A stretch of DNA of 64,000 bases from Prevotella sp. (lineage in GTDB: Bacteria; Bacteroidota; Bacteroidia; Bacteroidales; Bacteroidaceae), in assembly GCA_017940545.1 (NCBI GenBank), contig JAGAYI010000002.1, forward strand, positions 58,561-122,560, in the 5' to 3' direction. Made by a program: the position numbers and the translations under genes. The stretch's first letter is position 1; each line of letters begins with the position of its first letter. This document shows positions 12,712-25,838 of this stretch, piece by piece. The notes under the pieces are model-generated. The model saw nothing but the letters and a program-made list of their open reading frames with translations. It was not told the origin of the DNA and searched no databases.

Positions 12712-12726
12712 GGGTGTGACCCTTCC

Positions 12727-12798
12727 GTGTCAAGTACTTGACGCTCCAGTGTCAAGTAGTTGACCCTGCCGTGTCAAGTACTTGACACGGCAGGGTCA
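12727..12798. repeat. Array A: three 14-bp palindromes at 22-bp period
   Basis: Cores GTCAAGTACTTGAC (12729-12742), GTCAAGTAGTTGAC (12751-12764) and GTCAAGTACTTGAC (12773-12786) are separated by 8-base spacers, giving an exact 22-base period. The third unit sits in a 38-bp perfect palindrome (12761-12798). The outer sequences GTGTGACCC and GGGTCACAC also pair across the array. It lies in a convergent intergenic gap. Confidence 0.85.
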
Positions 12799-12845
12799 CA
12801 CCCCAACACCCCCGTACTCTCTCCCCGTCTCCCCGGCACTCTCTA

Positions 12846-12897
12846 CCCGTTTCCCCGGGGGTTTCTCCCAGAGAGACGGCACCTCTCTGGCGGAGAG
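12846..12897 (+). repeat. Flanking module shared by arrays A and B, copy A
   Basis: Contains CCCGTTTCCCCGG, GTTTCTCCCAG and ACGGCAC in this order. The same modules in the same order occur on the minus strand at 36940-36991 beside array B, so both loci are copies of one compound element. Confidence 0.7.
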
Positions 12898-12945
12898 TCC
12901 GAACAGGTTCTTGTTTAACGTAAGACAAGACAAGAAAAAAAACTG

Positions 12946-13107
12946 CTATGAGTTTGAGCAAGACACGCCCATCTGTCGGGCCAACTCCTTTTGTGTCAGG
13001 CCACGGGCCATAATCTCATCCTTTATCATTTCACCAGGATGGATCAGCATCGATGATGTCATGTTGTTTGCCTGCTGGCTTTCTGCTATATGATTCACGT
13101 TTTGCAT
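12946..13107 (-). pseudogene. Truncated HigA-type antitoxin
   Basis: A 53-residue ORF. After about 20 residues it reads SMLIHPGEMIKDEIMARG then LTQKELARQMGVS, which is the start of the XRE-family HigA antitoxin including the first helices of its helix-turn-helix. The reading then breaks to CSNS and a TAG, so the rest of the helix-turn-helix and the dimerisation region (normally about 90-110 residues in total) are missing. It overlaps the end of the HigB-like fragment upstream, keeping the higB-higA order. It is a non-functional remnant of a toxin-antitoxin locus. Confidence 0.75.
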
Positions 13108-13196
13108 TTCACAGCTTTCTGATAGCCACGTACTACCTGAGGCTGGAACCGCAGTTTCTTGATACCCGTCACACCCTTAGTGTACAGGTTTTCCAG
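13095..13196 (-). pseudogene. HigB-like toxin fragment fused to a Big_2 remnant
   Basis: The last 33 codons of this reading frame, LENLYTKGVTGIKKLRFQ onward through VVRGYQKAVK, resemble the N-terminal portion of HigB/RelE-type toxins, where a KKxRFQP...YQ element is typical. The frame then ends in CKT and a TGA. The toxin start and its catalytic C-terminal part are absent. It sits immediately before the HigA remnant, as expected for higBA. It is a deletion remnant. Confidence 0.6.
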
Positions 13197-13622
13197 ATTA
13201 CCTGACGACCACGACACACTCTTGTCTGTAGCATCATAAGGAGTAATTGTTGCCGTCAGTTGCGTTGTATTAGCCTTACAAGTAATCGTTGCACTACCTG
13301 ATGAGTTAGCCGTTACTAATCCGTTGCTGGTAACTGACGCGATACTACTATTGCTGGATGACCACGATACACTCTTGTCTGTGGCAGAACTGGGACTTAC
13401 GCTTGCATATAATTGTTTCGTATCACCGACATTTAATGTTGCAGATGTGGTATTCAGGGAAACACTCGTCACATATATTATTAGCGGAGAAACTTTCACA
13501 GAACATTGGGAATAGACTCCACTTCCATCTGTTGCATAACATGTGATGATGGCTGTTCCTATAGAATTAGCCTGAACCCATCCTGTATTACTTACAGAAG
13601 CAACAGTAGAATTATTTGTGAA
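13197..13622 (-). pseudogene. Bacterial Ig-like (Big_2) surface-protein fragment
   Basis: The frame encodes Big_2 repeats: NSTVASVSNTGWVQANSIG, then VTSVSLNTTSATLNVGD, WSSSNSSIASVTSNG and TATITPYDATDKSVSWSS. Big_2 domains normally form tandem beta-sandwiches in cell-surface adhesins. There is no start codon or signal peptide at the 5' side: the frame is interrupted by a TAA just upstream of KFTNNSTV. At its 3' side it runs straight into HigB-like sequence. The copies of ATDKSVSWSS are only about 155 bases apart, shorter than a full domain, so an internal deletion is likely. Confidence 0.7.
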
Positions 13623-13855
13623 CTTTTACGCATCCTGCTCTTAGGGAATATTTTGGCGGTATTCTGACGAAAAGAACAAGAGCTAAAAGCTCATTTTCAT
13701 ACAGTTCGAACGGGAGTGCGACGCACAATTCTGTTGGTTAGTAATAAATTGTTTGTTCGTTAATCCCTGTGGGAGTGCAGCACCTGGTGCCGTCGAATCT
13801 CCCTTCATGTTCTTCGTTTACTGTCTGTTTCTTATTTCTATTTTTATATACTACT
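13623..13855. other. Non-coding stretch with paired GGGAGTGC hairpin motifs
   Basis: No plausible gene. It holds GAGCT-AAA-AGCTC (13690s) and two similar small palindromes each preceded by GGGA: GGGAGTGCGACGCAC (13712-13726) and GGGAGTGCAGCAC (13771-13783), followed by GCACCTGGTGC. It looks like a remnant of a mobile element or a structured RNA. I cannot name it. Confidence 0.4.
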
Positions 13856-14206
13856 TTATCTATTCAATTCCATTAGATACTGTTCTATTTTATCGCGAAG
13901 TGGACTCAAATCATCCGTAATAGTTTCCCAGACCAAGCATTCTTCCACATTATGGTATCCATGAATCAGGAAATTACGCATATTTGTTATTTGCCTCCAT
14001 TGAACATCAGTATGAGTTTCACGAAACTCGTAAGTCAACATGTTGGCAGCTTCACCAATTATCATAATGTTATAAATGACAGCATGATATGATTTCTTGT
14101 CAGAGATAAACTCTTCCATTCCACGATTTCCTACAAACTCGAAAATCGTGTCAATAGCCCTAACAATATCAGCAAGCCGTTTGGGGTCATTACGATGCTC
14201 TCTCAT
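13856..14206 (-). CDS. hepT: HepT-like ribonuclease toxin (DUF86)
   Basis: 116 residues, all helical, of the HEPN superfamily. The catalytic RNase motif R-x4-H-x-Y is present as RNFLIHGY (R77, H82, Y84). In characterised pairs the MntA antitoxin silences HepT by adding AMP groups to the tyrosine of this motif. It overlaps the MntA-like gene by 17 bases, in the usual antitoxin-first order. Local AT content is higher than in neighbouring core genes, which fits acquisition by transfer. It appears intact. Confidence 0.9.
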   Translation of the reverse strand: MREHRNDPKRLADIVRAIDTIFEFVGNRGMEEFISDKKSYHAVIYNIMIIGEAANMLTYEFRETHTDVQWRQITNMRNFLIHGYHNVEECLVWETITDDLSPLRDKIEQYLMELNR

Positions 14207-14492
14207 ATATTAGTATTTTGTCACGGTCTGCACTCTCACGGGCAAAAGGCATGAGACCACCGTCAGTTATCAAATCAACCTCACAACCTAACATATCTTT
14301 AAGATCCTGATAAATGCCACCAAGCGTAAAGAGGCTAAAGTGTTGAGACTTATCTGGCAGAATCAAAATGTCTATATCAGAATTCTCATGTTGCTCTCCT
14401 CGTGAATAAGAGCCAAAAATCCAAGCCTTCAAGACTGGCTGAGTCTTGAAATAATCGGCCATTTGCTTTGTTATAACTTGAAAATCGTTCAT
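14190..14492 (-). CDS. mntA: MntA-like nucleotidyltransferase antitoxin
   Basis: 100 residues with a minimal nucleotidyltransferase fold. The signature GS-x10-DxD is seen as FGSYSRGEQHENSDIDI (G27, S28, D39, D41). A third acidic residue lies in EVDLI. It is predicted to AMPylate and inactivate the HepT partner. The ATG at 14492 is chosen because a TATCTTTG promoter box lies at 14524-14531; a longer ORF starting at 14579 would begin upstream of that promoter. Confidence 0.88.
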   Translation of the reverse strand: MNDFQVITKQMADYFKTQPVLKAWIFGSYSRGEQHENSDIDILILPDKSQHFSLFTLGGIYQDLKDMLGCEVDLITDGGLMPFARESADRDKILIYERAS

Positions 14493-14523
14493 ATATAGCT
14501 GATATTCTTTTTGCTTCCAACGG

Positions 14524-14531
14524 CAAAGATA
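14524..14531 (-). promoter_or_regulatory. -7 promoter box for mntA-hepT
   Basis: TATCTTTG on the minus strand, 31 bases upstream of the mntA ATG. It defines the start of that gene. Confidence 0.7.
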
Positions 14532-14575
14532 ATGAAAAAATCCATCTCCTCCAAATGTTTTTGCAAAAATCAGAT

Positions 14576-15196
14576 TCACTCCATCGGGAACAGTCCGAAG
14601 AGCTTGGCATCAATCATGTCGGTGACCTGCAGGAAGTGCTCGTGGCTCTCCCCAAACTTGCAGGTGTCGCCATCGACAATGATGAGGTTACCCTTGTAGC
14701 CGGCAATCCACTCCTCGTAGCGGTTGTTCAGGCCCTGTAGGTAGTCCAGCTGGATGGTCTGCTCGTAGGCACGGCCGCGTTTCTGAATCTGTGCTACCAG
14801 ATTGGGGATGGTGGAGCGGATGTAAATCATGAGGTCGGGCAGTTTGACGAGCGACATCATGAGGTCGAAGAGGTCGGTATAGTTCTGGAAGTCGCGGTCG
14901 GACATCATGCCCTGCCCGTGCAGGTTAGGCGCGAAGATACGTGCATCCTCGAAGATGGTGCGGTCCTGGATGATGGTATCCTTGGACTGCGATATCTCCA
15001 CCACTTCCTTGAAGCGCTTGTTGAGGAAATAAATCTGGAGATTGAACGACCAGCGTTTCATGTCGGCATAGAAGTCCTCCAGATACGGGTTGTTGTCAAC
15101 GGGTTCAAAACGGGGTGTCCAGCCATATCGCTTGGCCAGCATCTTGGTCAGCGTGGTCTTGCCGCTGCCGATGTTTCCTGCTATTGCTATGTGCAT
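14576..15196 (-). CDS. Deoxynucleoside kinase, copy 1
   Basis: 206 residues of the dNK/dGK-dAK family, which phosphorylate deoxynucleosides in salvage. The P-loop is GNIGSGKTT (residues 7-15). The family motif RWSFNLQIYFLNKRF (about 47-61), the catalytic/ERS-like QDRTIFEDARIF, and the lid region with Arg residues (QKRGRAYEQTIQLDYL) are present. Base specificity cannot be told, and such pairs in other bacteria act on purine deoxynucleosides. It is downstream of a paralogue in the same orientation with a 65-base gap containing TTTACGATTT and CTCCTTCC repeats. Confidence 0.9.
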   Translation of the reverse strand: MHIAIAGNIGSGKTTLTKMLAKRYGWTPRFEPVDNNPYLEDFYADMKRWSFNLQIYFLNKRFKEVVEISQSKDTIIQDRTIFEDARIFAPNLHGQGMMSDRDFQNYTDLFDLMMSLVKLPDLMIYIRSTIPNLVAQIQKRGRAYEQTIQLDYLQGLNNRYEEWIAGYKGNLIIVDGDTCKFGESHEHFLQVTDMIDAKLFGLFPME

Positions 15197-15261
15197 CTTG
15201 TTTATTTACGATTTAACGATTTACGATTTTTCCTTCCTCCTTACTCCTTCCTCCTTCCTCG

Positions 15262-15882
15262 CTATTCCGGGAACAGGCCGAAGAGCGTGCGGTCTATCTT
15301 ATCGACGATGCCGGCAAAGTCGTGCGGCTCGTGCTCGAAGTCGAGGTCATCAACATCGACCGACATGACGCGGCCCTTGTAGCGATGGGTGATGAAGTCC
15401 TCGTAACGCTCGTTGAGGTTCTGCAGATACTCCAGCTGGATGGTCTGTTCGTAGTCTCGGCCGCGCTTCTGGATGTTTGCCACCAGGTGGGGCACCGATG
15501 CCCGAAGATAAATCATCAGGTCCGGCATCTTGGCCACGTGCATCATCTGCTCGAACAGTTCCATGTACGTTTCGAAGTCGCGGTCGCTGAGGTTTCCCAT
15601 GGCCCTGTTGTTGGCCGTGAAGACATAGACGCCCTCGAAGATGGAGCGGTCCTGGATGATGGTGTGCTTCGCCTCGTTGATGCGGAGCAAGTCACGGAAG
15701 CGCTCCTTGAGGAAGAACACCTCCAGGGCAAACGACCAACGTCGGATGTCCTTATAATAGTCTTCCAGATAAGGGTTGTCGGCAACGGCTTCGAAACGTG
15801 CCTCCCACCCGTAGTGGCGGGCAAGCATGTTCGTCAGCGTGGTCTTTCCGCAGCCTATGTTTCCTGCAATGGCTATATACAT
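15262..15882 (-). CDS. Deoxynucleoside kinase, copy 2
   Basis: Same length (206 residues) and domain order as its neighbour: P-loop GNIGCGKTT, RWSFALEVFFLKERF, QDRSIFEGVYVF and QKRGRDYEQTIQLEYL. The P-loop Ser is replaced by Cys relative to copy 1, and the two proteins are clearly but not closely related. This suggests an old duplication with different substrate preferences or a heterodimer. It is the first gene of the pair with its own promoter box at 15900, and is divergent from a Nudix gene. Confidence 0.9.
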   Translation of the reverse strand: MYIAIAGNIGCGKTTLTNMLARHYGWEARFEAVADNPYLEDYYKDIRRWSFALEVFFLKERFRDLLRINEAKHTIIQDRSIFEGVYVFTANNRAMGNLSDRDFETYMELFEQMMHVAKMPDLMIYLRASVPHLVANIQKRGRDYEQTIQLEYLQNLNERYEDFITHRYKGRVMSVDVDDLDFEHEPHDFAGIVDKIDRTLFGLFPE

Positions 15883-15899
15883 ATTTATAGTTTTGCTGA

Positions 15900-15907
15900 C
15901 AAAGGTA
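15900..15907 (-). promoter_or_regulatory. -7 promoter box for the deoxynucleoside kinase pair
   Basis: TACCTTTG on the minus strand, 17 bases upstream of the copy 2 ATG. Confidence 0.7.
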
Positions 15908-15949
15908 CAAAATATTTACCAATCATGTATGTTTTTATATGATAATTTG

Positions 15950-15957
15950 TAACTTTG
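15950..15957 (+). promoter_or_regulatory. -7 promoter box for the Nudix gene
   Basis: TAACTTTG, 28 bases upstream of the Nudix ATG, divergent from the kinase promoter. Confidence 0.7.
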
Positions 15958-15985
15958 TACCCAAATAACAAGCAATGTACAAACT

Positions 15986-16393
15986 ATGGAAAAGACCAAG
16001 GAACCCACCCGTGTCGTATGCGCCGTCGTTGAGCGCAATGGCAAATATCTTTGCATGAAACGTACCCGCAGCCGCTATGCCTACATCAGCGAGCACTGGG
16101 AATTTCCCGGAGGCAAGGTGGAACAGGGTGAATGTGACCACGAGGCCCTGCTGAGAGAGATTCGCGAGGAAATGCGTTGGGACATCTTTGTTGGCCGGAA
16201 AATTGCTGAGTTCGACTACGACTATCCGCACTTCAGCACCCGTCTGGTGGCCTACCTCTGCCGCTGCGACGATGAGGACTCGTTCAAGCTGTTGGACCAC
16301 TTGGACTACCGATGGCTGGCAGCCGACGAACTGGAGAGCCTTGAATGGACTGCTGCCGACCGTGAACTGCTGAAATACATCGGTGCGAAGTAA
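15986..16393 (+). CDS. Nudix hydrolase, MutT/CTP-pyrophosphohydrolase-like
   Basis: 135 residues. The Nudix box spans about residues 42-65 (GGKVEQGE, then REIREEMRW). The glycine near its end is replaced by Arg (EEMRW in place of EExGU); the glutamates that bind metal are kept. Enzymes of this type hydrolyse (d)NTPs such as oxidised dGTP or modified dCTP. Divergent transcription from two deoxynucleoside kinases fits a shared role in nucleotide pool quality. The exact substrate is not evident. Confidence 0.9.
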   Translation: MEKTKEPTRVVCAVVERNGKYLCMKRTRSRYAYISEHWEFPGGKVEQGECDHEALLREIREEMRWDIFVGRKIAEFDYDYPHFSTRLVAYLCRCDDEDSFKLLDHLDYRWLAADELESLEWTAADRELLKYIGAK

Positions 16394-16412
16394 TTAAAAA
16401 AACGGGAACAGG

Positions 16413-16943
16413 CTACGTTCTGCCAGCATACTTGCGGCGAGCCCAGAAACGCTGGGCCAGCGACATCTTGGCATACTCCTGCCAGCCTACGGCACGCCCG
16501 TCGGGGAAACGGTCCAGATAGTGAGGATTATACATGTTGGCGTATGCTTCCATCTCAAAGGGGTTCAGCTCGTAGCCGGCATTGGGCAACACACGGTTAG
16601 CACGCCGCGCCTGCAGCCAAAAGACAAAATATTTCCAATAGAACAGGAGCCAGGAGTTACGGGTCGATTGTGCCTGTCGCAAATGAATGGTCTCGTGGAA
16701 CTTCACGGGATGATACCACGACTTGGTCGGCCCCGACTGGGGCTGCGCGTTAAGAAGCGTCGGCTCGAAATTGTTATACCGGTGCGCTTCGGCCTCGCTG
16801 TTGGTGATGATTGAGCCGAAGAAGGTCAGCGCATCGTAACCCTTATGGAGCCAAAAAGGCATGCTCACGGCACGCATGTCAGCCACATGGCTGGGGCGTC
16901 GTGCCGTGAGCATCAGTTTCAGTATATACAGGGCATTCGCCAT
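16413..16943 (-). CDS. Minimal HExxH zincin-like protein
   Basis: 176 residues of unknown family. The motif HETIHLRQ (H83, E84, H87) is a metalloprotease-type zinc site. A candidate third ligand is in NPFEMEAYAN (E130/E132), the arrangement seen in small integral or peripheral gluzincin-like proteins of this phylum. Between them lies an aromatic hydrophobic segment (LLFYWKYFVFWL, about 99-110), so membrane association is likely. No signal peptide is clear. It follows the Ser/Thr kinase gene by 11 bases in the same direction and could be the last gene of that locus. Activity is inferred only from the motif. Confidence 0.7.
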   Translation of the reverse strand: MANALYILKLMLTARRPSHVADMRAVSMPFWLHKGYDALTFFGSIITNSEAEAHRYNNFEPTLLNAQPQSGPTKSWYHPVKFHETIHLRQAQSTRNSWLLFYWKYFVFWLQARRANRVLPNAGYELNPFEMEAYANMYNPHYLDRFPDGRAVGWQEYAKMSLAQRFWARRKYAGRT

Positions 16944-16954
16944 GCTTTCGACTT

Positions 16955-18742
16955 TTACTTCACCTTGTCAACACCGTTCACCACCTTGTAGAGCAGCTTG
17001 TCGCTCTTGCTGTACCATGCGCCATCATAAGGAACAAAATTGCGGAACGTGCCCTTAAAGTAACTCTTGTCGGCTGCAATGGTATATACACCTTCGCCAA
17101 ACTGGTCGTTCACGAACGAGCCCTTATAGGTATCGCCATTCTTGAAGGTCAGCGTGGCATTGGCATCAACACGCATGCCATTCTCAAAGTGCCCGGTATA
17201 GGTGTCCTTGTCCTGGTCATTATATCGTGCCGTACCCTTGCCGTTGGGCTTCTTGTCGGCATCGACCTGACCGGTGTAGAAGAAGGCCACGCCGTCACTA
17301 CCGTAGATGGGCTCGTTCTCAACTGTGGCTACTTCAGCAACATCGGGCGTGTCGCTACCCAAGAGCTTGTTCACGACAAAGAATCCAAGCGCACCGCCTA
17401 TCAGGAGGAAGACCAGGAAAATGACAATGATAAGTGGAGCCTTGCTTTTCCTTTTGGGTGGGACGTTGTATGACGCATACCCACTGGCAGGCGTCTTGGC
17501 CTGCGACACCTGAGGCTTGGCCGGCTCGGGCTTGGGTGTTTCGGGCTCTGAAACAGCAGGCTTCGGTACCTCGGGCTTCGGTATTTCAGGCTTCGGCACC
17601 TCGGGCTTCGGTACCTCGGGAGTTGGCGTATGATACAACGTACTCTCATCTTCCGGAGCTGGAGTCATCGCGGCAGCCATGGGGGGCTCGGGTTCCGGTG
17701 CAGCAGGTCTGGGGGCCCCGGGAATAGGCGGCGGACCAACAGGCGGCTTTGAGGTAATGATGACCTCGTCACCTCCGCCAACGATGGTTTCTTCCGCGTC
17801 GGCCGGCTGCGGTTCATTCACCACTTCGGCCGGAATGGGTTTGGCTTCCAGCAGCGTAATCAATTGCTCCATGCTCTGCGGACGGTCTTTGCGACGGGGT
17901 TGCATGGCAGTAACGATGACATCCCAGACGTGTTCACTGACATAGTCGGGACGCTGGCCGAGGCCTTCCTCGTTGACGACTGACGCTTCGGGCGGAACCA
18001 TGCCGGTAACCAGGTTGTAGAGTGTGGCACCGAGACTATAGATGTCACTCACCGGCGAAAAGTCCTGCAGCGACTGCTGGAACTGCTCCAAGGGGGCAAA
18101 GCCCTTGCTCAGGCCAACCGGTGTGGCACTGGTTTCCCTACCGTCAGAGGTATAGTTCTTCGATATGCCAAAGTCAATGAGCATGGCCTTGTCACCGTTC
18201 AGCAGGATATTTGCCGGCTTGACATCGTAATGGCACATGTGTTTATCATTGTGCATGTAATTCAGGGCCTTGGCAATCTGCAAAGTGTAACGCACGGCAT
18301 CTTCTTCCGGCAGACGGCCCTTATCCTTCAGCAGGTCGCGCAAGGAACCGTCACGCAGGAACTGCATGACGTAATAGACGGTGTTGTTCTCCTCGAACAC
18401 GTCAGCCACATGCACAATGTTGGGATGGTTCAGCTGTGCCAGGTTATGGGCCTCCTTGATAAACTTCTGGCGGTACTTATCTACCTGGTCAACGCTGCCG
18501 GTTGAAGGAATAGAGACATTATTATTATAGGAGTCGCGCAGACAGGTGTCTTTCATGAAGAACTCCTTAATAGCTACAGGAACCTCCACCTCCATCTCGC
18601 CCAGCTTGCCCGTTACTTTCTCAGTTGTCATTGCCTGATAGGTAATGCCGAAACCACCCTGTCCGAGGACGCGGACAATGGTGTATCGGCCATCCTGCAA
18701 TGTTGACCCTTGATGCAGGGTTACTTTTTTCTGTGTATCCAT
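16955..18742 (-). CDS. Membrane Ser/Thr protein kinase with periplasmic MORN repeats
   Basis: 595 residues. The cytoplasmic kinase domain (about 20-300) has a glycine loop GQGGFGITY (28-36), VAIK (K59), HYDVKPAN (D173) and DFG (190-192). The usual Arg before the catalytic Asp is Tyr, so it is a non-RD kinase and may not need activation-loop phosphorylation. A Pro/Glu/Lys-rich linker with repeated PKPEVPKPE units (about 340-420) leads to one transmembrane helix (about 436-458). A C-terminal exported region then carries MORN-type repeats (TYTGHFENG, TYKGSFVNDQFGEGVY, YFKGTF). It would phosphorylate Ser/Thr on neighbours in the locus. T319 in AEETIVGGG is a possible autophosphorylation and FHA-docking site. 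Confidence 0.92.
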   Translation of the reverse strand: MDTQKKVTLHQGSTLQDGRYTIVRVLGQGGFGITYQAMTTEKVTGKLGEMEVEVPVAIKEFFMKDTCLRDSYNNNVSIPSTGSVDQVDKYRQKFIKEAHNLAQLNHPNIVHVADVFEENNTVYYVMQFLRDGSLRDLLKDKGRLPEEDAVRYTLQIAKALNYMHNDKHMCHYDVKPANILLNGDKAMLIDFGISKNYTSDGRETSATPVGLSKGFAPLEQFQQSLQDFSPVSDIYSLGATLYNLVTGMVPPEASVVNEEGLGQRPDYVSEHVWDVIVTAMQPRRKDRPQSMEQLITLLEAKPIPAEVVNEPQPADAEETIVGGGDEVIITSKPPVGPPPIPGAPRPAAPEPEPPMAAAMTPAPEDESTLYHTPTPEVPKPEVPKPEIPKPEVPKPAVSEPETPKPEPAKPQVSQAKTPASGYASYNVPPKRKSKAPLIIVIFLVFLLIGGALGFFVVNKLLGSDTPDVAEVATVENEPIYGSDGVAFFYTGQVDADKKPNGKGTARYNDQDKDTYTGHFENGMRVDANATLTFKNGDTYKGSFVNDQFGEGVYTIAADKSYFKGTFRNFVPYDGAWYSKSDKLLYKVVNGVDKVK

Positions 18743-18772
18743 TGTTTCTTCTGTCTATAGTCTGAACTTATA

Positions 18773-20053
18773 TTACATGTACCAGGAACGCTGCTTGACA
18801 CCATCGGTAATCAGGTAGGTGCCACTGTCGGTAAACTTGACCACGGCAGGATGGAAGTCCTGGTCCTTGAGAGCTTCTTCCACGTTGGTGGGAATATCCT
18901 TGTAATAGACACCTCTTGAACAGCAGACGACAATGCCCTTATTGGTCACGCAGCAGCTCTTGATGGCTCCGAACTTCTCGAGGGCACGCTTCAGGTTGGC
19001 GTGGTCGGTCTCGTGCGATGCATAGTAGTGTTTGTTCGTGATGATGGCGAAATTACCATTTTCACAAATCGATACTGACAGTATTTCCTCGCCATCACCA
19101 TTGTACTTGCTCATCAGTTCTTTCATCTTGTCAGGCATGACGCCCCAATAGCCGTTCTTGTCCCACACAATACACCAATAGCCAGAGTCTGTCATTGTGA
19201 TATCGGCAATCCTTTTCTTGTCGTTATTACATTCCCGTATCTTGGTCTTCAAGCCTTCGGGAACGGCCGAAGTAAAGCAGTAACCGTTATCACCATAGAC
19301 GGCTACGCCGCGCTCATCCTCAGTAATGGCACCTGTGCGGCAACCGTCATCGCCCCACTCCTTGATGGTCTTGGTAATATACGACAAGGCCTTGGCATTG
19401 TCGGTGTAGGAACGCGTAGTGCCATAGAATTCGAAACTGCCGGAACCGGAACCCGTCGATGACACAGCACGCTCATAGACCTGGAACGTGGAAGAAATGA
19501 GTCGTTTGCTCTTATACCACAGCTCCCAGCGATAAAGACCTTTCTGATAGGAGCCGCCGTCATTGTTTCCCCATCCGGGCAGGACAAGGGTCTGCGAGTT
19601 TCCTTTCTCAAAGTCGGCCTCGTCTGACGTCGTGTAGCCTGAGGGCGACGAGCTGCCGGTCATCATGGTTCCGTCGGGACGGTAAATCTTGGTATAGAGC
19701 GTCACGTTACTGACAGAACGGCTGCAGGTATAGGTAAGTTTGGGTGTGGCATACTTCAACTCATCGGCATACAACGTACCTCCATACGATGTCAGCACAT
19801 CACCGTCATAGTTGGTATTGCCGACTTGCAGACGGGTAATGGTCACATAGTCCATCGCATTGGTCTTTACCGGTGTGGTCGTCGGCTTGGTGGGTTTCTT
19901 TACCGGTTTCTTGCCACCCGAGGTGCTGGATGGCGTAGTCTGGCTGGGTAAATTCTGCCGACGCGTAATGGTCTTTTGCGCATCGGCTCCCTGCACTCCT
20001 GCAATGGCCAATGTCAGGAGTATGAGGGCGATTTTCATCATGTCCTTTTTCAT
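18773..20053 (-). CDS. Exported protein of the kinase locus, function unknown
   Basis: 426 residues with a cleavable signal peptide (ending near GADAQ). A Thr/Pro/Lys-rich linker (QTTPSSTSGGKKPVKKPTKP region) follows, then a beta-rich domain (about 68-190) with YRWELWYKSKRLISSTFQVYE near its end, like an Ig-type sandwich. The C-terminal domain (about 215-426) has repeated GYWCIVWDKNGYWG / GNFAIITNKHYY / GIVVCCSRGVYY strands that suggest a repeated beta structure. No catalytic motif is recognised. It lies between the kinase and phosphatase genes, so it may be the periplasmic partner or target of the MORN domain. Confidence 0.75.
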   Translation of the reverse strand: MKKDMMKIALILLTLAIAGVQGADAQKTITRRQNLPSQTTPSSTSGGKKPVKKPTKPTTTPVKTNAMDYVTITRLQVGNTNYDGDVLTSYGGTLYADELKYATPKLTYTCSRSVSNVTLYTKIYRPDGTMMTGSSSPSGYTTSDEADFEKGNSQTLVLPGWGNNDGGSYQKGLYRWELWYKSKRLISSTFQVYERAVSSTGSGSGSFEFYGTTRSYTDNAKALSYITKTIKEWGDDGCRTGAITEDERGVAVYGDNGYCFTSAVPEGLKTKIRECNNDKKRIADITMTDSGYWCIVWDKNGYWGVMPDKMKELMSKYNGDGEEILSVSICENGNFAIITNKHYYASHETDHANLKRALEKFGAIKSCCVTNKGIVVCCSRGVYYKDIPTNVEEALKDQDFHPAVVKFTDSGTYLITDGVKQRSWYM

Positions 20054-20074
20054 TGTATTTCAGTTTTTACGTGT

Positions 20075-21475
20075 CTATAAAAAAATCCCATCGCTTTCTT
20101 CAGCATCGTGACGGCTGTTCTGCTGACCCTCTGCCGATTCCCCGTCTTGCGGCTTTCCACCTTGCGGTTTGGTGGCCGACGGTCCTTCCGAATTGGTCTT
20201 GTTGGGGTCTTGAATTTTTCGCGGAGGTGTAGTAGCCTTTGGAGGCGTTGCCTGTCCACTCGGTCGGCGAACAGGGGGAGTCTGTGGGTTCTGCTGCTGA
20301 CGGACGGCGGGTCGGTCGTCATCGTCTTCAACGTCTTCGCGTGTGATGGTGGTCTCCGTCGATGTGCGAGTAGGACGGACAGGACGATTGTCGTCATTGT
20401 TGTTTAGCCAGAAAAACACTCCTACGACAGCAGCCAGGACGACGAAAAAGAAGATAACAGCCATCATCAGGAACATGTGCCTTCCCTTGTTGCTGCGTGG
20501 CGGTGCAGAGGGCGTCGTGGGTTGCTGGCGATACTCTGGCTGTGGAGGTACCGGACTTCCCACCACAACCTGCACATCATCTTCGTCGGTCTGCTCCCCC
20601 GTCGGGTCGGGCAAGGGTGGCGGCGGAGCAGGTACTGGGTAGAGCTCTGCCATCAGCACTTTGTTGGCAGAACGTGCACGGGCTTCATCGTCGGGAAACT
20701 GACCGTCTCCCTCCTCATGCTCTACTGAGTCAATGCGAATGATGTAGGCAGAATGGTTGTCTGCGTTATCAACCGTCTCACCGACCAGAATGCTGCGTTT
20801 CTGCTCTTCACTCTTGTCGCTGGCAAAGACTTCCATCAGGCCCTTGTCGTCCATCTGCTCCAGCATACCGTCGGAACACAGATAGAAGTAATCGCCCGCT
20901 TCTATGTTTTTGATATGGACGATGTCTGCCTTCGAAGGACGCTCCTGATGCGCCATGATGACACGAGTGATGACGTTCTTGTTCTTGGCCGTTTTCAGTT
21001 CCTCCCTGCTAAGCTCACCCACCTCAAAGAGGTCATACACCAAAGAGTGGTCGCGCGAACGATAGAGAATATCCTTCGTGGCGGGACGAAGGTGATAGAT
21101 ACGGCTGTCACCGATGTGGGCCACCGTGCATCCGCCCTTGTGGAAGCAAAGCAGCGTCAGGGTGGTGCCCATCTTTTTCTGCCCTGTGGCATCTTGCTCG
21201 TCAACAGCAGCGTAGGCTGCCGTCACCGCTTCCTCTAACAGTTCATCGTTGAGCAGTTCATGGACGTCCCAACGACTGAGAATGTAGTTGCTGATGGTCT
21301 TGCAAACGGTACTACTGGCTACTTCGCCAGACTCATGTCCGCCCATGCCATCGCAAAGAATGAACAGGCAATCGTTGACGGTAGCCTCGCCCAGCAACGG
21401 GAATATCGAGTCTTCCTGATTGCTGCGGCTACCTAACTGCTGAATAGCAAGTGGTTGACTTATTTTAACTTTCAT
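20075..21475 (-). CDS. Membrane-anchored PP2C-family protein phosphatase
   Basis: 466 residues. The PP2C catalytic domain (about 1-255) contains SNQED, CDGMGGHESGE (D42), AHIGDSRIY (D123), CSDGMLEQ (D202) and DNADNHS (D240), the metal-binding set for Ser/Thr dephosphorylation. A Pro-rich linker (VPAPPPPLPDPT) leads to one transmembrane helix (about 333-357). A roughly 110-residue exported tail follows, rich in Pro, Thr, Asp and Lys with no fold visible. It is the natural opponent of the kinase two genes downstream. It is 22 bases from the FHA gene on one side and 21 from the exported-protein gene on the other, so co-transcription is likely. Confidence 0.92.
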   Translation of the reverse strand: MKVKISQPLAIQQLGSRSNQEDSIFPLLGEATVNDCLFILCDGMGGHESGEVASSTVCKTISNYILSRWDVHELLNDELLEEAVTAAYAAVDEQDATGQKKMGTTLTLLCFHKGGCTVAHIGDSRIYHLRPATKDILYRSRDHSLVYDLFEVGELSREELKTAKNKNVITRVIMAHQERPSKADIVHIKNIEAGDYFYLCSDGMLEQMDDKGLMEVFASDKSEEQKRSILVGETVDNADNHSAYIIRIDSVEHEEGDGQFPDDEARARSANKVLMAELYPVPAPPPPLPDPTGEQTDEDDVQVVVGSPVPPQPEYRQQPTTPSAPPRSNKGRHMFLMMAVIFFFVVLAAVVGVFFWLNNNDDNRPVRPTRTSTETTITREDVEDDDDRPAVRQQQNPQTPPVRRPSGQATPPKATTPPRKIQDPNKTNSEGPSATKPQGGKPQDGESAEGQQNSRHDAEESDGIFL

Positions 21476-21497
21476 ACTATGGTAAATTTCTTGATGG

Positions 21498-22124
21498 TTA
21501 TACAGGTAGTTCGTATCTTAATATCACGGTGCCCATTTTGATTTCTGCCCCGTTCTTCAGTATCAGCTTGTCGGAACCGTTGAGCAACACTCCTGAAACG
21601 AAGGTGGAGTTCTTATTTGAGCCATTACTGATAATGGCCCTGACGGACATGTCAGCCATCCGTACCGTTTCTATGACAGCATGAAAACGACTCATGGTGT
21701 TGTTGCCGTTGGTGTCAATCTGCACCGTAGCCTGGGGGGTCGAACTGCGACGGCCGATGGTATTCCGACCGATGACCAACGGGTAACGCACATGATTATA
21801 CACCAGGAACCCAGCCGTATTACCGACGGCCTGCTGCTGGGTGTGGTGTCCGGCGAGAATGGTACGTCCGTCGTCTGGTACTGGCTGATAGGCTGGCTGC
21901 TGGTACTGCGGCGGCTGATACTGCGGTTGCTGATATGCCTGCTGCACGGGCATAGCCTCCTGTACAGGTTGTGCCAGGCCTGCCTGCATGGGCTGCGAGC
22001 GGAACCGCACCATGAGCTGGCATCCGCAATTGGGACATTTTATGAGTTTCTGTTCTACGTTGAGCCTGTTTTTGACATCCAGCTCAACGCGACATTTCGG
22101 ACAAACTACTCTGACTGTTTCCAT
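21498..22124 (-). CDS. FHA-domain protein with N-terminal zinc ribbon
   Basis: 208 residues, soluble. The N-terminus has a CxxC...CxxC zinc ribbon (C8, C11, C30, C33). The middle is a Gln/Pro/Tyr-rich linker (YQQPQYQPPQYQQPAYQP). The C-terminal FHA domain (about 110-208) shows VIGRNTIGR, SRFHAVIE and the NGS...LLNG loop needed to bind phosphothreonine. The linker ends DDGRTILAGHH, which resembles the ETIVGG motif of the kinase. It is expected to be a cytoplasmic phosphothreonine reader, directly upstream of the PP2C gene. Confidence 0.92.
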   Translation of the reverse strand: METVRVVCPKCRVELDVKNRLNVEQKLIKCPNCGCQLMVRFRSQPMQAGLAQPVQEAMPVQQAYQQPQYQPPQYQQPAYQPVPDDGRTILAGHHTQQQAVGNTAGFLVYNHVRYPLVIGRNTIGRRSSTPQATVQIDTNGNNTMSRFHAVIETVRMADMSVRAIISNGSNKNSTFVSGVLLNGSDKLILKNGAEIKMGTVILRYELPV

Positions 22125-22150
22125 AATAGTAGCTCTTCTGTATTTTTGTG

Positions 22151-22897
22151 TTATTTCCAGGTTATAACCGGCATGTTGTTATCAAACTTTCCCCACATGA
22201 CGGGGTGCTGTCTGTCTTCTGAAATATTCTTGACACCTTTGCTGACGAATATAAACAATTCCAAGGCCGTCACCACACGGTCCTTGTTGGTATCGGCACC
22301 ACCGCGAAGACCGCGCTGCAGATAGGCCGTAAAGAAACCGTTTTTCATGTCCCGGCGCTCAATGGATGTCTCATCGGAACGGGACGACAGGAAGAACATC
22401 ACTTTGGTATTGCGCAGGTTTTCCGGCACGCTGGTGTTATACTGCGTACGCTGCTCGTTTCTCATTTTGCCAGAGAAGCAGGCATCGGCAAAAATCATCT
22501 TCGAGCGTGCCTTGCTCTTTGCCATGATGTTTTTAATGCTGTGGTAGTCCAGCTCTCCGTCATAGCAGACAAGATTTCCCGGGCTGCCATGACCGCTGAA
22601 GAAGAATAGAATGGCATCATTCTTCGTCGCCTTGGCAAACTGCTGCTGCAGAGCTGCCAGGATGGCCGCACGCGTGGCCTGCGAATTGGTCAGCAGGATG
22701 GTGTTCGACCGTTTGTTTTTCGCGAACACGCCCTTGATGGTGACGGCATCGTTGGCACATAGGGTCAGGTCCATATTTGTGCCAGGATAGTCGGCTATCC
22801 CAGCAGAAACAATGTAAATCTTCTTTTGGGCTGATGCTGAGCCAACGCTCAACACCAGCACCAAGAGCATCAGGAACAATCTTATGTTTTTGTTCAT
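22151..22897 (-). CDS. Exported caspase-family (C14-like) cysteine protease
   Basis: 248 residues with a signal peptide (MNKNIRLFLMLLVLVLSVG, cleavage near ASAQ). A caspase-hemoglobinase fold follows, with catalytic His in FFFSGHGS (H103) and catalytic Cys in FADACFSGK (C140). The core strands (KIYIVSAGIADY, AILFFF, KMIFADAC, KVMFFLSSRSDE) are complete and the length is compact. It is predicted to act in the periplasm, probably cleaving after basic or acidic residues; specificity cannot be read. Its place inside a kinase/phosphatase/FHA locus points to regulated proteolysis as the output. Confidence 0.9.
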   Translation of the reverse strand: MNKNIRLFLMLLVLVLSVGSASAQKKIYIVSAGIADYPGTNMDLTLCANDAVTIKGVFAKNKRSNTILLTNSQATRAAILAALQQQFAKATKNDAILFFFSGHGSPGNLVCYDGELDYHSIKNIMAKSKARSKMIFADACFSGKMRNEQRTQYNTSVPENLRNTKVMFFLSSRSDETSIERRDMKNGFFTAYLQRGLRGGADTNKDRVVTALELFIFVSKGVKNISEDRQHPVMWGKFDNNMPVITWK

Positions 22898-22917
22898 GGG
22901 AATGGCCTGTATCGTCG

Positions 22918-23841
22918 TTATACTAAAATGGCATCACCGGCATCGTTAATGTAGTCGGGCATGCTTCCGTCATCAACGCCAGGCAACGTGTTATCTACAA
23001 TCAGCCCGTCGTCAAAGCCACCGTCATTAGCAGGGTCGGAAATCATAGGTTCTTCGCCATCATCCATGTTGATTACATATACACCGTCACCATTTTCAGG
23101 GCTTCCTGTTTCTTCTCCAGGTAACACACCGACAATCTCCACGTCTTCGTCAGCGTTTCCCAGATCGTTGATGACAACGTCGTCATTGTCTGCCGGTTCA
23201 GCGGGTACATGGTGAATATGCACGTCGTTATGATAGACAATGTCAACGTGGTCGTCAGGCGTGTAGTGACTGTTCTCGCTGTTCAGGGCCGACAATGACT
23301 GGTGGGTAAACTCACGGCGCTCTGAAGGGCTCATGCTGTTCCACTCGTTCTCAACATAGGTTGCATAGACATTGCCGTGCCACACAAAGGCACCGCCGGG
23401 ACCTACCTCGGCACGTGCTGCAGCAAAAGCCTCATTGAACGACATAGAGTCGGAAACCTCTGCCACCATCATGCCGTTGTCGAGCATGTAATGCCCCTCG
23501 TCGGGAACTGACACGTCTTCCGTTTCGGGCTGAACTTCGGGTTCCACTTCGTCCCCGTTTCCGCTGAAGTGATGGTAGGCTGCCGTGGCACCTACTGCAC
23601 TGACGGAACCGAACATAATGCCGGCTACGCCACCAATGACAATGCGTTTCCAGGTCTGTCCGTCATCGCCCGATGTCGGCTGAAAGGCCGGGCGCGGCGG
23701 TGTTGCCGGGCGTGCTTGTGCGTTAGGGCGTGCCTGCGGTGTAGGACGCGGGGGAACTGCCGGACGTGGGGGAACTTGATTGTTTTTGGGTGCTCCGTTT
23801 ACTGGGCCTACTACGATGGTATCTTCATTATTTGTTGCCAT
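22918..23841 (-). CDS. Single-pass membrane protein with acidic exported domain and MPDY tail
   Basis: 307 residues, no known family. The cytoplasmic N-terminus begins MATNNEDTIVVGPVNG, followed by a Pro/Arg linker (PPRPAVPPRPTPQARP). One transmembrane segment lies near residues 68-92 (GGVAGIMFGSVSAVGATAAYHHF). The exported part is acidic and includes a modest domain (DSMSFNEAFAAARAEVG...GAFVWHGNVYATYVENEWN) that resembles a short conserved core. A His/Asp-rich stretch (VDIVYHNDVHIHHVP) follows. The protein ends SMPDYINDAGDAILV, close to the tail of the next protein. The N-terminal TIV motif could be phosphorylated by the locus kinase. Confidence 0.8.
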   Translation of the reverse strand: MATNNEDTIVVGPVNGAPKNNQVPPRPAVPPRPTPQARPNAQARPATPPRPAFQPTSGDDGQTWKRIVIGGVAGIMFGSVSAVGATAAYHHFSGNGDEVEPEVQPETEDVSVPDEGHYMLDNGMMVAEVSDSMSFNEAFAAARAEVGPGGAFVWHGNVYATYVENEWNSMSPSERREFTHQSLSALNSENSHYTPDDHVDIVYHNDVHIHHVPAEPADNDDVVINDLGNADEDVEIVGVLPGEETGSPENGDGVYVINMDDGEEPMISDPANDGGFDDGLIVDNTLPGVDDGSMPDYINDAGDAILV

Positions 23842-23906
23842 AGTCGTAAAATTTTTAAAGTGATTATTGAATTAGGTTGAAAGTTAAAAACGTATCGGCT
23901 TGCGTT

Positions 23907-24479
23907 TCACACAAGAAGCATGTCGCTAACATCACCGTTGTTGACATAGTCCGGCATGGTGCCGTCACCCTCAAGCGAGGTATATAGAGGGTCACCACCG
24001 TCTGTCCCTGGGTCGTTGGCATAGCCTGCCGTCGGGTCGAGCTCGTCCGGACTTATGATGTCGTCGGGCAACACTTCGTCCTCAATATCTACTACCGGTC
24101 CGGGTTCGTTGATGTCGAAGGGCTCGTCGGGAGGCATGACAGGATAAATATCGTCGGGTACAACAGGAGAAACGTTCTCGGCAGGGGCATCCACTACATA
24201 GACATCTGTGGTGTGGTGAATGTGGTGAACTTCGTGGTGATGCACTTGCTGGGGTTCAGCCTGTGCAATCTGCACATCATCGTCAGAGTCGATGGCAGCC
24301 ATGACAGGCTCTTCCTGTCCGTCGTTCTCGGTCAGCCTCTCGTAGGCGTAGGCTCCTCCCACTCCTACCGCTGCTCCGGCTGCGGTCCCGACTGCTGCTC
24401 CTAAGGCACCTTCCAGTAATCCGGTGCCGTCATTCTTTTTAGGCGCGGGCCTCATGTTCAAGTCATTTTCCATATTCAT
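23907..24479 (-). CDS. Acidic, His-rich membrane protein with MPDY tail
   Basis: 190 residues, no known family. A short cytoplasmic N-terminus is followed by a Gly/Ala-rich transmembrane helix (about 22-46, LLEGALGAAVGTAAGAAVGV). The exported part has a His cluster (HHHEVHHIHHTTDVYVV, possible metal ligands) and then is Asp/Glu/Pro rich. The last residues, GTMPDYVNNGDVSDMLLV, match the tail of the 307-residue neighbour, so the two are distant paralogues or share a docking signal. A TATCTTTG promoter box 34 bases upstream suggests an internal promoter for this and the genes downstream. Confidence 0.8.
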   Translation of the reverse strand: MNMENDLNMRPAPKKNDGTGLLEGALGAAVGTAAGAAVGVGGAYAYERLTENDGQEEPVMAAIDSDDDVQIAQAEPQQVHHHEVHHIHHTTDVYVVDAPAENVSPVVPDDIYPVMPPDEPFDINEPGPVVDIEDEVLPDDIISPDELDPTAGYANDPGTDGGDPLYTSLEGDGTMPDYVNNGDVSDMLLV

Positions 24480-24512
24480 ACAGTTTTAGGTTTATAATAA
24501 TCTTATCACTTG

Positions 24513-24520
24513 CAAAGATA
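24513..24520 (-). promoter_or_regulatory. -7 promoter box inside the kinase locus
   Basis: TATCTTTG on the minus strand, in the 144-base gap between the FHA-zinc ribbon gene and the MPDY-tail gene. It would drive 24479 down to the kinase. Confidence 0.65.
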
Positions 24521-24623
24521 AGTCATAAAAGCCTTATTACCAAACATTTTCTCCCATTCTTCACAAAGGCTGGGGGTTCCGTGACGAAATACCCGTTTTG
24601 CGTGACATTCTGGTCAAGCAGGC

Positions 24624-25325
24624 TTACTTGATAAACTTGGCCTTGCAGTAAGGGCACTGGTCGTACTGGCGAACCAGCAGGTCATAGTCCATCGTATAGA
24701 ACTTCCTACAACAGGGGCAGACATAGCTGTTGCGCAGTTTTTGCTGCAGCATCTTGCGCTTCATCGGTGCCTTCTTGGAATCGTTCAGCGAAACAACAAT
24801 CATGGTAACGGTAATAATCAGGCCAATTCCCATGAAGAAGAAGCGGAAAAAGCCTAATGAGTCGGGCAGAATGAAGACACTGATCATGCCTAACGTACCT
24901 AATGCTCCGGCAATACCGCGAATGGCATTCTTCTTGGCCAGGTCTGCCTGTATGGCATTCGTCTCCTCTTCGTAGCGCATCCACACTCGCCTCAACGGAC
25001 GAATGTCTGCCGTCTTGGGTGTCACCTGGTCAATAAGTTGCCTGATGGCTTCCCAGCTGAGCTTGTAGTGCTCTCCTCCCAACTCTACGACGTCGCTCGT
25101 CGTGACGGTCTTGGTAAAGATGGGACTACCGTTCACGTAGGTGTCGTTCTCCATCTTCAGATTTTCTATGGTGTAGGTTCCGTTGGGCAGAACCTGTACG
25201 CGGCAATGCCGACGGCTGACGCTTCTTGGCACACTGTCAATGCCGCCAAAGGGTACTGTCTTATTCCCCATCGTCAGGTTCAGCTGACCGTTCTGCGCGT
25301 TGCGTCCGATAACAATTTCCAACAT
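24624..25325 (-). CDS. FHA-domain membrane protein with C-terminal zinc ribbon
   Basis: 233 residues. The N-terminal FHA domain (about 1-92) has EIVIGRNAQNG, SRRHCRV and YVNGSPI, the phosphothreonine-binding set. A helical linker is followed by two transmembrane helices (about 138-183, GALGTLGMISVFILPDS and FFFMGIGLIITVTMIVV). The C-terminal CPCC...CPYC zinc ribbon (C203-C227) faces the cytoplasm. This is the mirror image of the other FHA protein, which has the ribbon first. It is 15 bases downstream of the LytTR regulator gene, so the pair is co-transcribed. Confidence 0.9.
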   Translation of the reverse strand: MLEIVIGRNAQNGQLNLTMGNKTVPFGGIDSVPRSVSRRHCRVQVLPNGTYTIENLKMENDTYVNGSPIFTKTVTTSDVVELGGEHYKLSWEAIRQLIDQVTPKTADIRPLRRVWMRYEEETNAIQADLAKKNAIRGIAGALGTLGMISVFILPDSLGFFRFFFMGIGLIITVTMIVVSLNDSKKAPMKRKMLQQKLRNSYVCPCCRKFYTMDYDLLVRQYDQCPYCKAKFIK

Positions 25326-25340
25326 ATTTTCCTTATATGG

Positions 25341-25709
25341 TTATATTTTAACTTGAATCATGAGTTCCTTCAGCTTCTTGAGGGCATCTTTCGACACGTC
25401 AAGCGTGTAGTAACACTGGCGGAAATCCGACAAGACGAGACGATGCTTGAGCACATTGATCTGGAAAACCATGTTCAGGTTAATCACGTACCGCTTGCCA
25501 ATGCGTGCAAAGTACATCACCTTTCCCTGCAGCCTTTCCGACAAAATGGCTTCCATCTTCCCGAGACTCATGCCGACGGTGCATTTCAGCTTGTTCGACA
25601 GCATGATGTCGGTGTAGTTGCCATCTGCCTCAAAATAGGCAATTTCCCGCATGTCTATACGTAACAGGTCGTCGCGAGAGTTCAGGAACAGCCAGTCTTT
25701 GTTTGTCAT
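25341..25709 (-). CDS. LytTR-domain DNA-binding regulator without receiver domain
   Basis: 122 residues consisting essentially of one LytTR DNA-binding domain (IAYFEADGNYTDIMLSN, MYFARIGKRYVINLNMVFQI, LKKLKELM). No response-regulator receiver precedes it. The ATG at 25709 (MTNKDWLFL) is chosen because a TACATTTG promoter box lies 29 bases upstream at 25738-25745; the longer frame up to 25823 would cross that promoter. As the first gene of the kinase/phosphatase locus it is the best candidate for its transcriptional control. Repeats it might bind were not identified. Confidence 0.88.
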   Translation of the reverse strand: MTNKDWLFLNSRDDLLRIDMREIAYFEADGNYTDIMLSNKLKCTVGMSLGKMEAILSERLQGKVMYFARIGKRYVINLNMVFQINVLKHRLVLSDFRQCYYTLDVSKDALKKLKELMIQVKI

Positions 25710-25737
25710 ATCCTTTGTATTTTTGATATTCAAGTGA

Positions 25738-25745
25738 CAAATGTA
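25738..25745 (-). promoter_or_regulatory. -7 promoter box for the LytTR-FHA genes
   Basis: TACATTTG on the minus strand, 29 bases upstream of the LytTR start. It fixes the start codon choice there. Confidence 0.6.
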
Positions 25746-25838
25746 ATAATAAATATTAAATTGAGCAAAATAAATCCGACAAAAAGTTGCTTCATACATG
25801 ATTTTAGGTCCAAATTTGTCCATTTCGAATTATTTTTT

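Follow-up and report, generated by a model that had tools for sequence, protein, structure and literature searches.

In type VI secretion, Fha was found by experiment to bind a phosphothreonine made by the kinase PpkA in the N-terminal cytoplasmic part of the bitopic protein TssL (PMC3953482). A survey of metacaspase operons counted 23 operons with signalling, sensor or regulatory domains, with kinase, PP2C and FHA partners left unnamed in the portion of its text available (PMC3501461). NTP-dependent conflict systems may hold kinases and FHA domains, one actinobacterial group having a kinase–PP2C–vWA set (PMC7159879), and the conflict systems in the accessible parts of PMC7159879 and PMC8195603 are built on other cores. 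The KKP module, composed of Ser/Thr kinases and a phosphatase, was described as prophage-borne and defensive (PMC11341870). The locus analysed here is a ten-gene cluster in a stretch of 64,000 nucleotides of Prevotella sp. DNA (contig JAGAYI010000002.1; the whole stretch is referred to as the window), taken from a genome of 70.5% completeness in 65 contigs. The cluster encodes a transmembrane Ser/Thr kinase, a PP2C phosphatase, two FHA proteins, an acidic bitopic protein of 307 amino acids (aa), called the adaptor below, and an exported caspase-family protease. With a probability of roughly one half, we take it to be a membrane-spanning phosphothreonine switch with the exported caspase as its output.

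The original prediction, made from the DNA letters, had placed ten genes with such domains on one strand, and the list of open reading frames (ORFs) together with Pfam searches confirmed ten minus-strand ORFs at 16413..25745 with the domains as claimed. The LytTR regulator had been described as lacking a receiver, and no receiver domain was found in it by Pfam.

Caspase loci were collected by a pattern scan of a species-genome collection, in which at least 428 places were confirmed and the best 80 kept, so that the sample covers the loci most similar to the query. Partner genes were counted with domain-limited profiles in fetched stretches of at most 10 kb on each side, some loci being cut by contig ends. 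The 80 loci consisted of 57 short caspases (<320 aa), five of about 400 aa and 17 longer ones, with a fusion (L096) set apart. FHA genes were located near 52 of the 57 short caspases, PP2C near 47, kinase near 45, the adaptor domain near 42 and LytTR near 38. FHA, adaptor, PP2C and kinase were all present in 32 of these loci, and at least one of FHA, PP2C and kinase was detected in 56, the exception being L090. For the 17 longer caspases, the count was zero for each of FHA, PP2C, kinase and adaptor, and the caspases of about 400 aa were accompanied by kinase (5/5), PP2C (4/5) and FHA (2/5). The comparison of short and long caspases gave Fisher p values from 3.7e-7 to 1.1e-12, with the relatedness of the loci not removed.

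A set of 149 related genomes, the window's own included, was searched as well. Caspase matches occurred in 45 of them, and close matches (E <=1.6e-24) at 18 places in 16 genomes. Besides the window, 14 of the close places fell among the 20 fetched regions (G099:C246 was left out), and all 14 carried an FHA or kinase gene in the same stretch. The gene encoding the protein with FHA, membrane segment and zinc ribbon was identified at 24 places; counting by eye from the listed places gave PP2C within 20 kb of 19 of them, kinase of at least 18 and caspase of 11. The adaptor profile matched 22 contigs in 19 of the 149 genomes, 17 of the contigs with the FHA–membrane segment–zinc ribbon protein and 12 with a caspase, and the adaptor was rare across the phylum (5 of 395 genomes in an even sample, the window's genome included). 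Pairwise distances for the caspase, PP2C and both FHA proteins correlated over 45 loci (r 0.77–0.84, none of 2000 permutations as high, species tree uncorrected), which shows joint inheritance and not contact.

Gene order was surveyed in 116 loci, with the duplicates L066 and L074 dropped and both entries of one locus (L096/L140) kept. The order FHA–adaptor–caspase–FHA–PP2C was observed in 22 loci, all from Bacteroidales, and in 15 of the 116 this order had LytTR and kinase at its ends, giving the full LytTR-to-kinase arrangement. A variant, adaptor–FHA–PP2C–caspase–kinase, was found in six loci, belonging to Persicitalea, two Spirosoma, Fibrisoma, one Bacteroidales and one further genome. Cultivated carriers of the cluster include Spirosoma, Runella and Bacteroides caecigallinarum. 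The neighbours of the cluster, recognised from their sequence, vary, with ligA in L031, L051 and L052, groES/groEL in L079, L083, L084 and L091, and translation genes elsewhere. An order that stays constant beside unrelated neighbours owes its conservation to selection or joint transfer, and not to old synteny alone. The co-occurrence check proposed with the original prediction thus came out in its favour for the short caspases, the order being kept well beyond close relatives and the caspase mostly lying near PP2C (47/57) and kinase (45/57).

In Runella aurantiaca (L096/L140), a single frame of 521 aa comprised a PP2C domain (14–208), a hydrophobic stretch and a caspase domain (289–511). Provided that this stretch spans the membrane, the fusion would have its phosphatase on the inner and its caspase on the outer side, matching the prediction for the unfused proteins. 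Two kinases with an FHA domain, one of them confirmed by Pfam, were present in L044. A 75.9-kb plasmid of Runella rosea (NZ_CP030851.1; L177, 1–6775) carries genes annotated as FHA, hypothetical, FHA, PP2C and caspase, and the hypothetical protein contains the adaptor domain (2.4e-24); no kinase was found among the seven plasmid genes scanned. This plasmid module lies near OmpA, WG-repeat and SUMF1-type genes. In L047, a second kinase/PP2C/FHA cluster (12420–19638) directly adjoins the main one, and in one of its FHA proteins a membrane segment and then a long additional region follow.

The window caspase scored 68.3 bits against PF00656 (curated cut-off 21.4), and the dyad H103/C140 named in the original prediction was found invariant, together with the Asp two residues before the Cys. 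The D[AS]C sequence was present in 69 and a hydrophobic N-terminus in all of 70 short caspases, and the nearest solved structures by sequence were GSU0716 (3bij) and metacaspases. An Asp at this position presumably directs cleavage after Arg/Lys, as in metacaspases, and such cleavage would be expected for the window protein. Residues 43–221 matched the model of EACC1-associated caspases (NF047832) with 68.4 bits, below the curated cut-off of 140. The caspases of L098, L101, L107, L114, L119, L124 and L126 have MORN repeats and an N-terminal hydrophobic segment, MORN being the repeat type suspected in the periplasmic part of the window kinase; the MORN start of the caspases of about 400 aa was assigned by Pfam for two and by sequence in five.

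The window kinase retains the VAIKE, HYDVKPAN and DFG motifs. For the MORN repeats proposed for its periplasmic part, the Pfam match was weak (E 0.0026), with a score below the curated one (18.0 against 22.5 bits), and the score against the PASTA kinase model NF033483 was 154.3 bits, the cut-off being 450. In loci L031–L156, 93 of the 120 kinase genes with a readable motif were of the non-RD type (10 more were unread), and H-L-D was the most frequent motif (75/130). Alignment of 18 members of the FHA–membrane segment–zinc ribbon family revealed invariant G7, S37, R38, H40, N60 and T62, as well as C203, C206, C224 and C227 of the zinc ribbon; we take S37, R38, H40 and N60 to be the residues expected in a phosphothreonine pocket. 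The second FHA protein has its FHA domain and zinc ribbon in the opposite order.

The adaptor consists of a cytoplasmic tail, one helix and a conserved periplasmic domain with ten invariant columns, W154, G156, Y159 and W167 among them. The N-in orientation is predicted from the 15 residues flanking the helix, which hold 229 Lys and Arg before it and 46 after it, with an excess before the helix in 58 of 61 proteins. No shared Pfam family was found, as one of 16 members gave a weak match to a domain of unknown function (DUF) and the window protein gave none; the adaptor is an undescribed family and the other parts are of known families. DxDxDG loops following the domain number 79, spread over 46 of the 72 proteins, where shuffles gave 7.2; they suggest calcium binding. 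A C-terminal peptide considered as a conserved site was only modestly enriched (34/72 against 10.96 shuffled) and was not used. The adaptor profile also gave a weak match (E 0.035) to a large toxin chain. Two acidic membrane proteins had been expected in the cluster; the 307-aa one is bitopic, whereas the helix of the 190-aa one is weak (score 1.46).

An acidic T-[IVL] motif was first seen in loci L031–L050, in adaptor tails, kinase linkers and the linkers of zinc ribbon–FHA proteins. The pattern [DEN][DEKHNRST]T[IVL][IVLFYMAG] was fixed on these loci and tested on L051–L130 against 500 composition-preserving shuffles, with identical proteins removed and close relatives kept. The first profile set confused kinase with PP2C through proline-rich linkers, and the adaptor and kinase tests were redone with the domain-limited assignment; the motif counts for PP2C, caspase, FHA and the TD form described below, the table of motif types, the look at L151 and L152 and the relatives of the 426-aa protein in L051 and L052 are still those of the first set. 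Of the 45 proteins bearing the adaptor domain, 25 had the motif in their tails, with 29 matches in all (shuffle mean 0.86), and kinase juxtamembrane linkers gave 22 matches in 22 of 69 (mean 1.99), with none of the 500 shuffles as high in either case. The periplasmic parts of the same proteins were under the shuffle level, with 2 matches for the adaptor (8.02) and 3 for the kinase (4.81). The first assignment had given 29 matches in 25 of 61 tails (1.02), these 61 including paralogues without the adaptor domain, and 22 in 22 of 69 kinase linkers (2.10); its controls were PP2C linkers with 2 matches (1.46), FHA–membrane segment–zinc ribbon proteins with 3 (4.46) and caspases with 5 (8.57).

In Runella, Persicitalea, Spirosoma and Fibrisoma, the motif is replaced by TD[VLMTA][YF], which was found in 4 tails (0.18) and with 5 matches in 3 kinase linkers (0.33); both adaptor and kinase use TD-x-[YF] in the first three of these genera. 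Across the 46 loci with both segments, 31 had both motifs, and the motif type of adaptor and kinase agreed in 24 of them (permutation 0.00085).

That the genes are neighbours by chance and the threonine motif a by-product of acidic low-complexity linkers is hardly credible. The linkers are indeed acidic and poorly conserved, but the composition-preserving shuffles and the periplasmic acidic stretches without the motif argue against such an origin, as do the partner counts of 0/17 for long and 42–52/57 for short caspases and the constant order at unrelated sites.

Several observations weigh against the proposed switch. No module gene was in view for two short caspases, L090 and L152, the latter on a contig of 10.5 kb (the caspase of L151 has an adjacent FHA gene), and the caspase was absent near 13 of the 24 FHA–membrane segment–zinc ribbon genes and from 10 of the 22 adaptor contigs. 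The strict motif is limited to little more than half of the adaptor tails (25/45) and about a third of the kinase linkers (22/69), and its signal in zinc ribbon–FHA linkers was weak (4 matches against 1.26, with 25 of 500 shuffles as high). It is present, too, in kinases of the same family encoded at other places in these genomes (4/21, shuffle mean 0.69), which as a control therefore did not separate from the cluster kinases. TD-x-[YF], also found within the FHA domain in 5 of 49 zinc ribbon–FHA proteins, is thus not specific on its own, the agreement of motif types without the three TD loci gave a Fisher p of 0.14, and shared ancestry was not removed in the motif tests.

As about half of the FHA/adaptor modules are without a caspase, the circuit has other uses. 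This supports a different reading, in which kinase, PP2C, two FHA proteins and adaptor form the core and govern an envelope process, e.g., the display or assembly of repeat-rich exported proteins, with the caspase as an exchangeable output. A Pfam survey of 130 accessory proteins within the clusters, of which 25 of 47 families were listed, points the same way: the accessory genes named were mostly of repeat or ligand-binding types, and the families listed included the FGE-sulfatase fold (14 of 130), BspA leucine-rich (11), Sel1 (8) and WG (4) proteins. A broader envelope function is therefore a serious rival. Against it stands the short caspase itself, which is almost always accompanied by module genes (56/57), often occupies a fixed position and is once fused to PP2C, and we consider this explanation possible but rather unlikely. 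The caspase could also act upstream, as a periplasmic protease whose trimming of the adaptor or the kinase ectodomain delivers an outside-in signal to the phospho-circuit. The genes for caspase and adaptor frequently lie side by side and both products are predicted to be periplasmic, but the periplasmic part of the adaptor is acidic with no conserved cleavage site identified, and for many modules no caspase gene was seen, which makes this direction improbable.

In the inside-out switch that we favour, the transmembrane kinase would sense a signal outside the inner membrane through its variable periplasmic part (MORN-like in the window) and phosphorylate [DE]-x-T-[IVL] threonines in its own juxtamembrane linker and in the adaptor tail (Thr8), and probably also in the zinc ribbon–FHA linker (Thr88). 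The two FHA proteins, one of them membrane-anchored, would bind the phosphothreonines and gather kinase and adaptor, and PP2C would strip the phosphates. Gathering or reshaping of the adaptor may then pass via its glycine-rich helix to the periplasmic domain and so control the caspase; of all the steps, control of the caspase by the adaptor has the least support. LytTR would set expression. The genes, their order and conservation, the topology signals, the motif enrichment and the fusion are seen in the sequence, whereas phosphorylation, FHA binding, coupling through the membrane, control of the caspase and its cleavage specificity are inferred. The wider proposal is somewhat less probable than the switch itself and is put forward tentatively: an undescribed pathway, kept across Bacteroidota in chromosomes and, with most of its genes, on a plasmid, in which a phosphothreonine code on the tails of new bitopic adaptors is read by FHA proteins and switches a caspase across the membrane. 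The roles and triggers of bacterial caspases are largely open. The cluster pairs a caspase with genes that probably control it and adds a candidate regulator, exact threonines and a natural PP2C–caspase fusion, so that caspase control becomes directly testable, and, if true, the pathway would show how an intracellular phosphorylation signal could command periplasmic proteolysis.

The original prediction had linked the cytoplasmic phospho-circuit to all the periplasmic parts of the cluster. For the caspase, this link is supported by co-location, order, fusion and the motif-bearing bitopic protein, whereas the 426-aa exported protein dropped out of the core: full-length relatives beyond the window were found in G056 alone of the 149 genomes and also in L051 and L052. 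The HExxH protein, likewise counted as part of the set, had no match among Pfam or NCBIfam models and its relatives in L031–L156 were confined to L031, L051 and L052. Both proteins were rejected as core parts because of such sparse relatives, and the HExxH protein is probably outside the core. The features of the cluster are collected in Table 1.

Table 1. Features of the cluster, in window coordinates, in the order of transcription.
Feature	Position	Strand	Basis and remarks
Promoter-like site, TTTG-N20-TAnnTTTG	25738..25769	-	before LytTR; conserved in window, L031, L051, L052
LytTR DNA-binding protein without receiver, 122 aa	25341..25709	-	Pfam LytTR 2.4e-10
FHA–membrane segment(s)–zinc ribbon protein, 233 aa	24624..25325	-	FHA 2.0e-9
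Promoter-like site before 190-aa gene	24513..24544	-	conserved in window, L031, L051, L052
Acidic protein, 190 aa	23907..24479	-	without tail motif and without the adaptor's periplasmic domain
Bitopic acidic adaptor, 307 aa, unnamed family	22918..23841	-	alignment, topology; motif site Thr8 in tail, transmembrane segment 67–85, conserved periplasmic domain
Exported caspase-family protease, H103/C140, Asp138	22151..22897	-	Pfam Peptidase_C14 1e-18; three residues invariant in 15 aligned
Zinc ribbon–linker–FHA protein, 208 aa	21498..22124	-	FHA 8.4e-9; motif site Thr88 in linker
PP2C phosphatase, 466 aa, one transmembrane segment from residue 335	20075..21475	-	PP2C_2 2.3e-12; DGMGG, SDG, DNHS
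Exported 426-aa protein, local accessory	18773..20053	-	no Pfam match reaching the cut-off
Transmembrane Ser/Thr kinase, 595 aa, MORN-like periplasmic part	16955..18742	-	Pkinase 6.9e-39; motif sites Thr319 and Thr368 in linker, transmembrane segment 438–456
HExxH protein, 176 aa, local accessory	16413..16943	-	no Pfam/NCBIfam family

The gaps from the HExxH gene through the 307-aa gene are 11–30 bp long, and those beyond are 65, 144 and 15 bp. For the LytTR ORF, 25709 is the most likely start, giving 122 aa as in L031, rather than 25823. The two promoter-like sites follow TTTG-N20-TAnnTTTG, which we take to be the Bacteroidetes-type consensus, and both are kept in all four sequences compared, i.e., the window and its closest relatives, L031 from the same genus and L051 and L052 from uncultured Prevotellaceae; two conserved sites make two transcripts likely. 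The cluster is flanked by a NUDIX-like gene on one side and, presumably, ligA on the other. The ten flanking genes scanned comprise what we take, from their Pfam families, to be pheS, transporter, trmD, recJ, recQ, ilvB and ilvD types, along with genes for a C1-like peptidase, a carboxypeptidase-regulatory-like protein and a protein of 4141 aa. The last is a single ORF (37531–49956, minus strand) with no Pfam match at 1e-4. Also on the minus strand, two small overlapping ORFs at 13856–14579 presumably form a HEPN/minimal nucleotidyltransferase pair, and two tandem P-loop genes of 206 aa at 14576–15882 presumably encode deoxynucleoside kinases; the tandem genes are a duplication, with DNA stretches 73–77% identical at a spacing of 686 bp. 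An inverted repeat at 12712–12803 has 44-nt arms, 89% complementary and built from 22-bp units.

A defence response had also been suggested for the locus, and an antiphage or abortive-infection system, in which a kinase cascade releases a lethal protease, was considered. In PADLOC, the kinase scored best with the models for Mad6 (192.5 bits) and for kinases of PD-T4-6, the caspase matched a caspase model, and single accessory proteins matched defence models such as reverse transcriptase and Cas1, with one member each. However, the kinase matches look generic, PADLOC found no other defence part in the ten genes, and the accessory matches were sporadic, no family among the 25 of 84 listed matching more than three of the 130 proteins (with no random-gene baseline). 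The flanking genes are metabolic, repair, peptidase or unknown ones, the caspase is predicted to be exported, and a search of 50,697 phage records at E 1e-6 detected no caspase match. A role in antiphage defence is accordingly very improbable, and a defence island was rejected on the sporadic accessory matches, the non-defence flanks and the null result in phage records. Nearness to defence or secretion genes had been proposed as a check, and the ten flanking genes scanned included no defence gene. Type VI secretion genes were missing from the ten cluster genes, the ten flanking genes and the accessory Pfam families listed (25 of 47), and a link to type VI secretion was dismissed on this basis.

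The literature search, with subscription journals mostly outside its scope, yielded no description of this gene set. The cluster resembles the type VI threonine phosphorylation pathway (PpkA, PppA, Fha, TssL) in having a transmembrane kinase, PP2C and FHA in one cluster, and the adaptor resembles TssL in being bitopic with a candidate phospho-motif in its cytoplasmic tail, a likeness known here from motif enrichment and topology only. It differs from that pathway in its output, which appears to be an exported caspase, and in an adaptor without a Pfam match. The caspase shares the His/Cys dyad and the Asp two residues before the Cys with metacaspases and orthocaspases and differs from them in being of the signal-peptide type, with its gene bound up with a cluster of kinase, PP2C and FHA genes. 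The likeness to EACC1-associated caspases is confined to the NF047832 match described above, and in contrast to the EACC1 and NTP-dependent systems, no NTPase or MoxR family was found by Pfam among the ten genes. MADS consists of the Mad6 kinase together with other mad genes; the window kinase matches the mad6 model and the other nine proteins match no mad model. Unlike KKP, the window has one kinase, accompanied by FHA proteins, adaptor and caspase amid housekeeping genes. Placed among these systems, the cluster would be a phosphothreonine switch module whose adaptor is undescribed and whose output is unusual.

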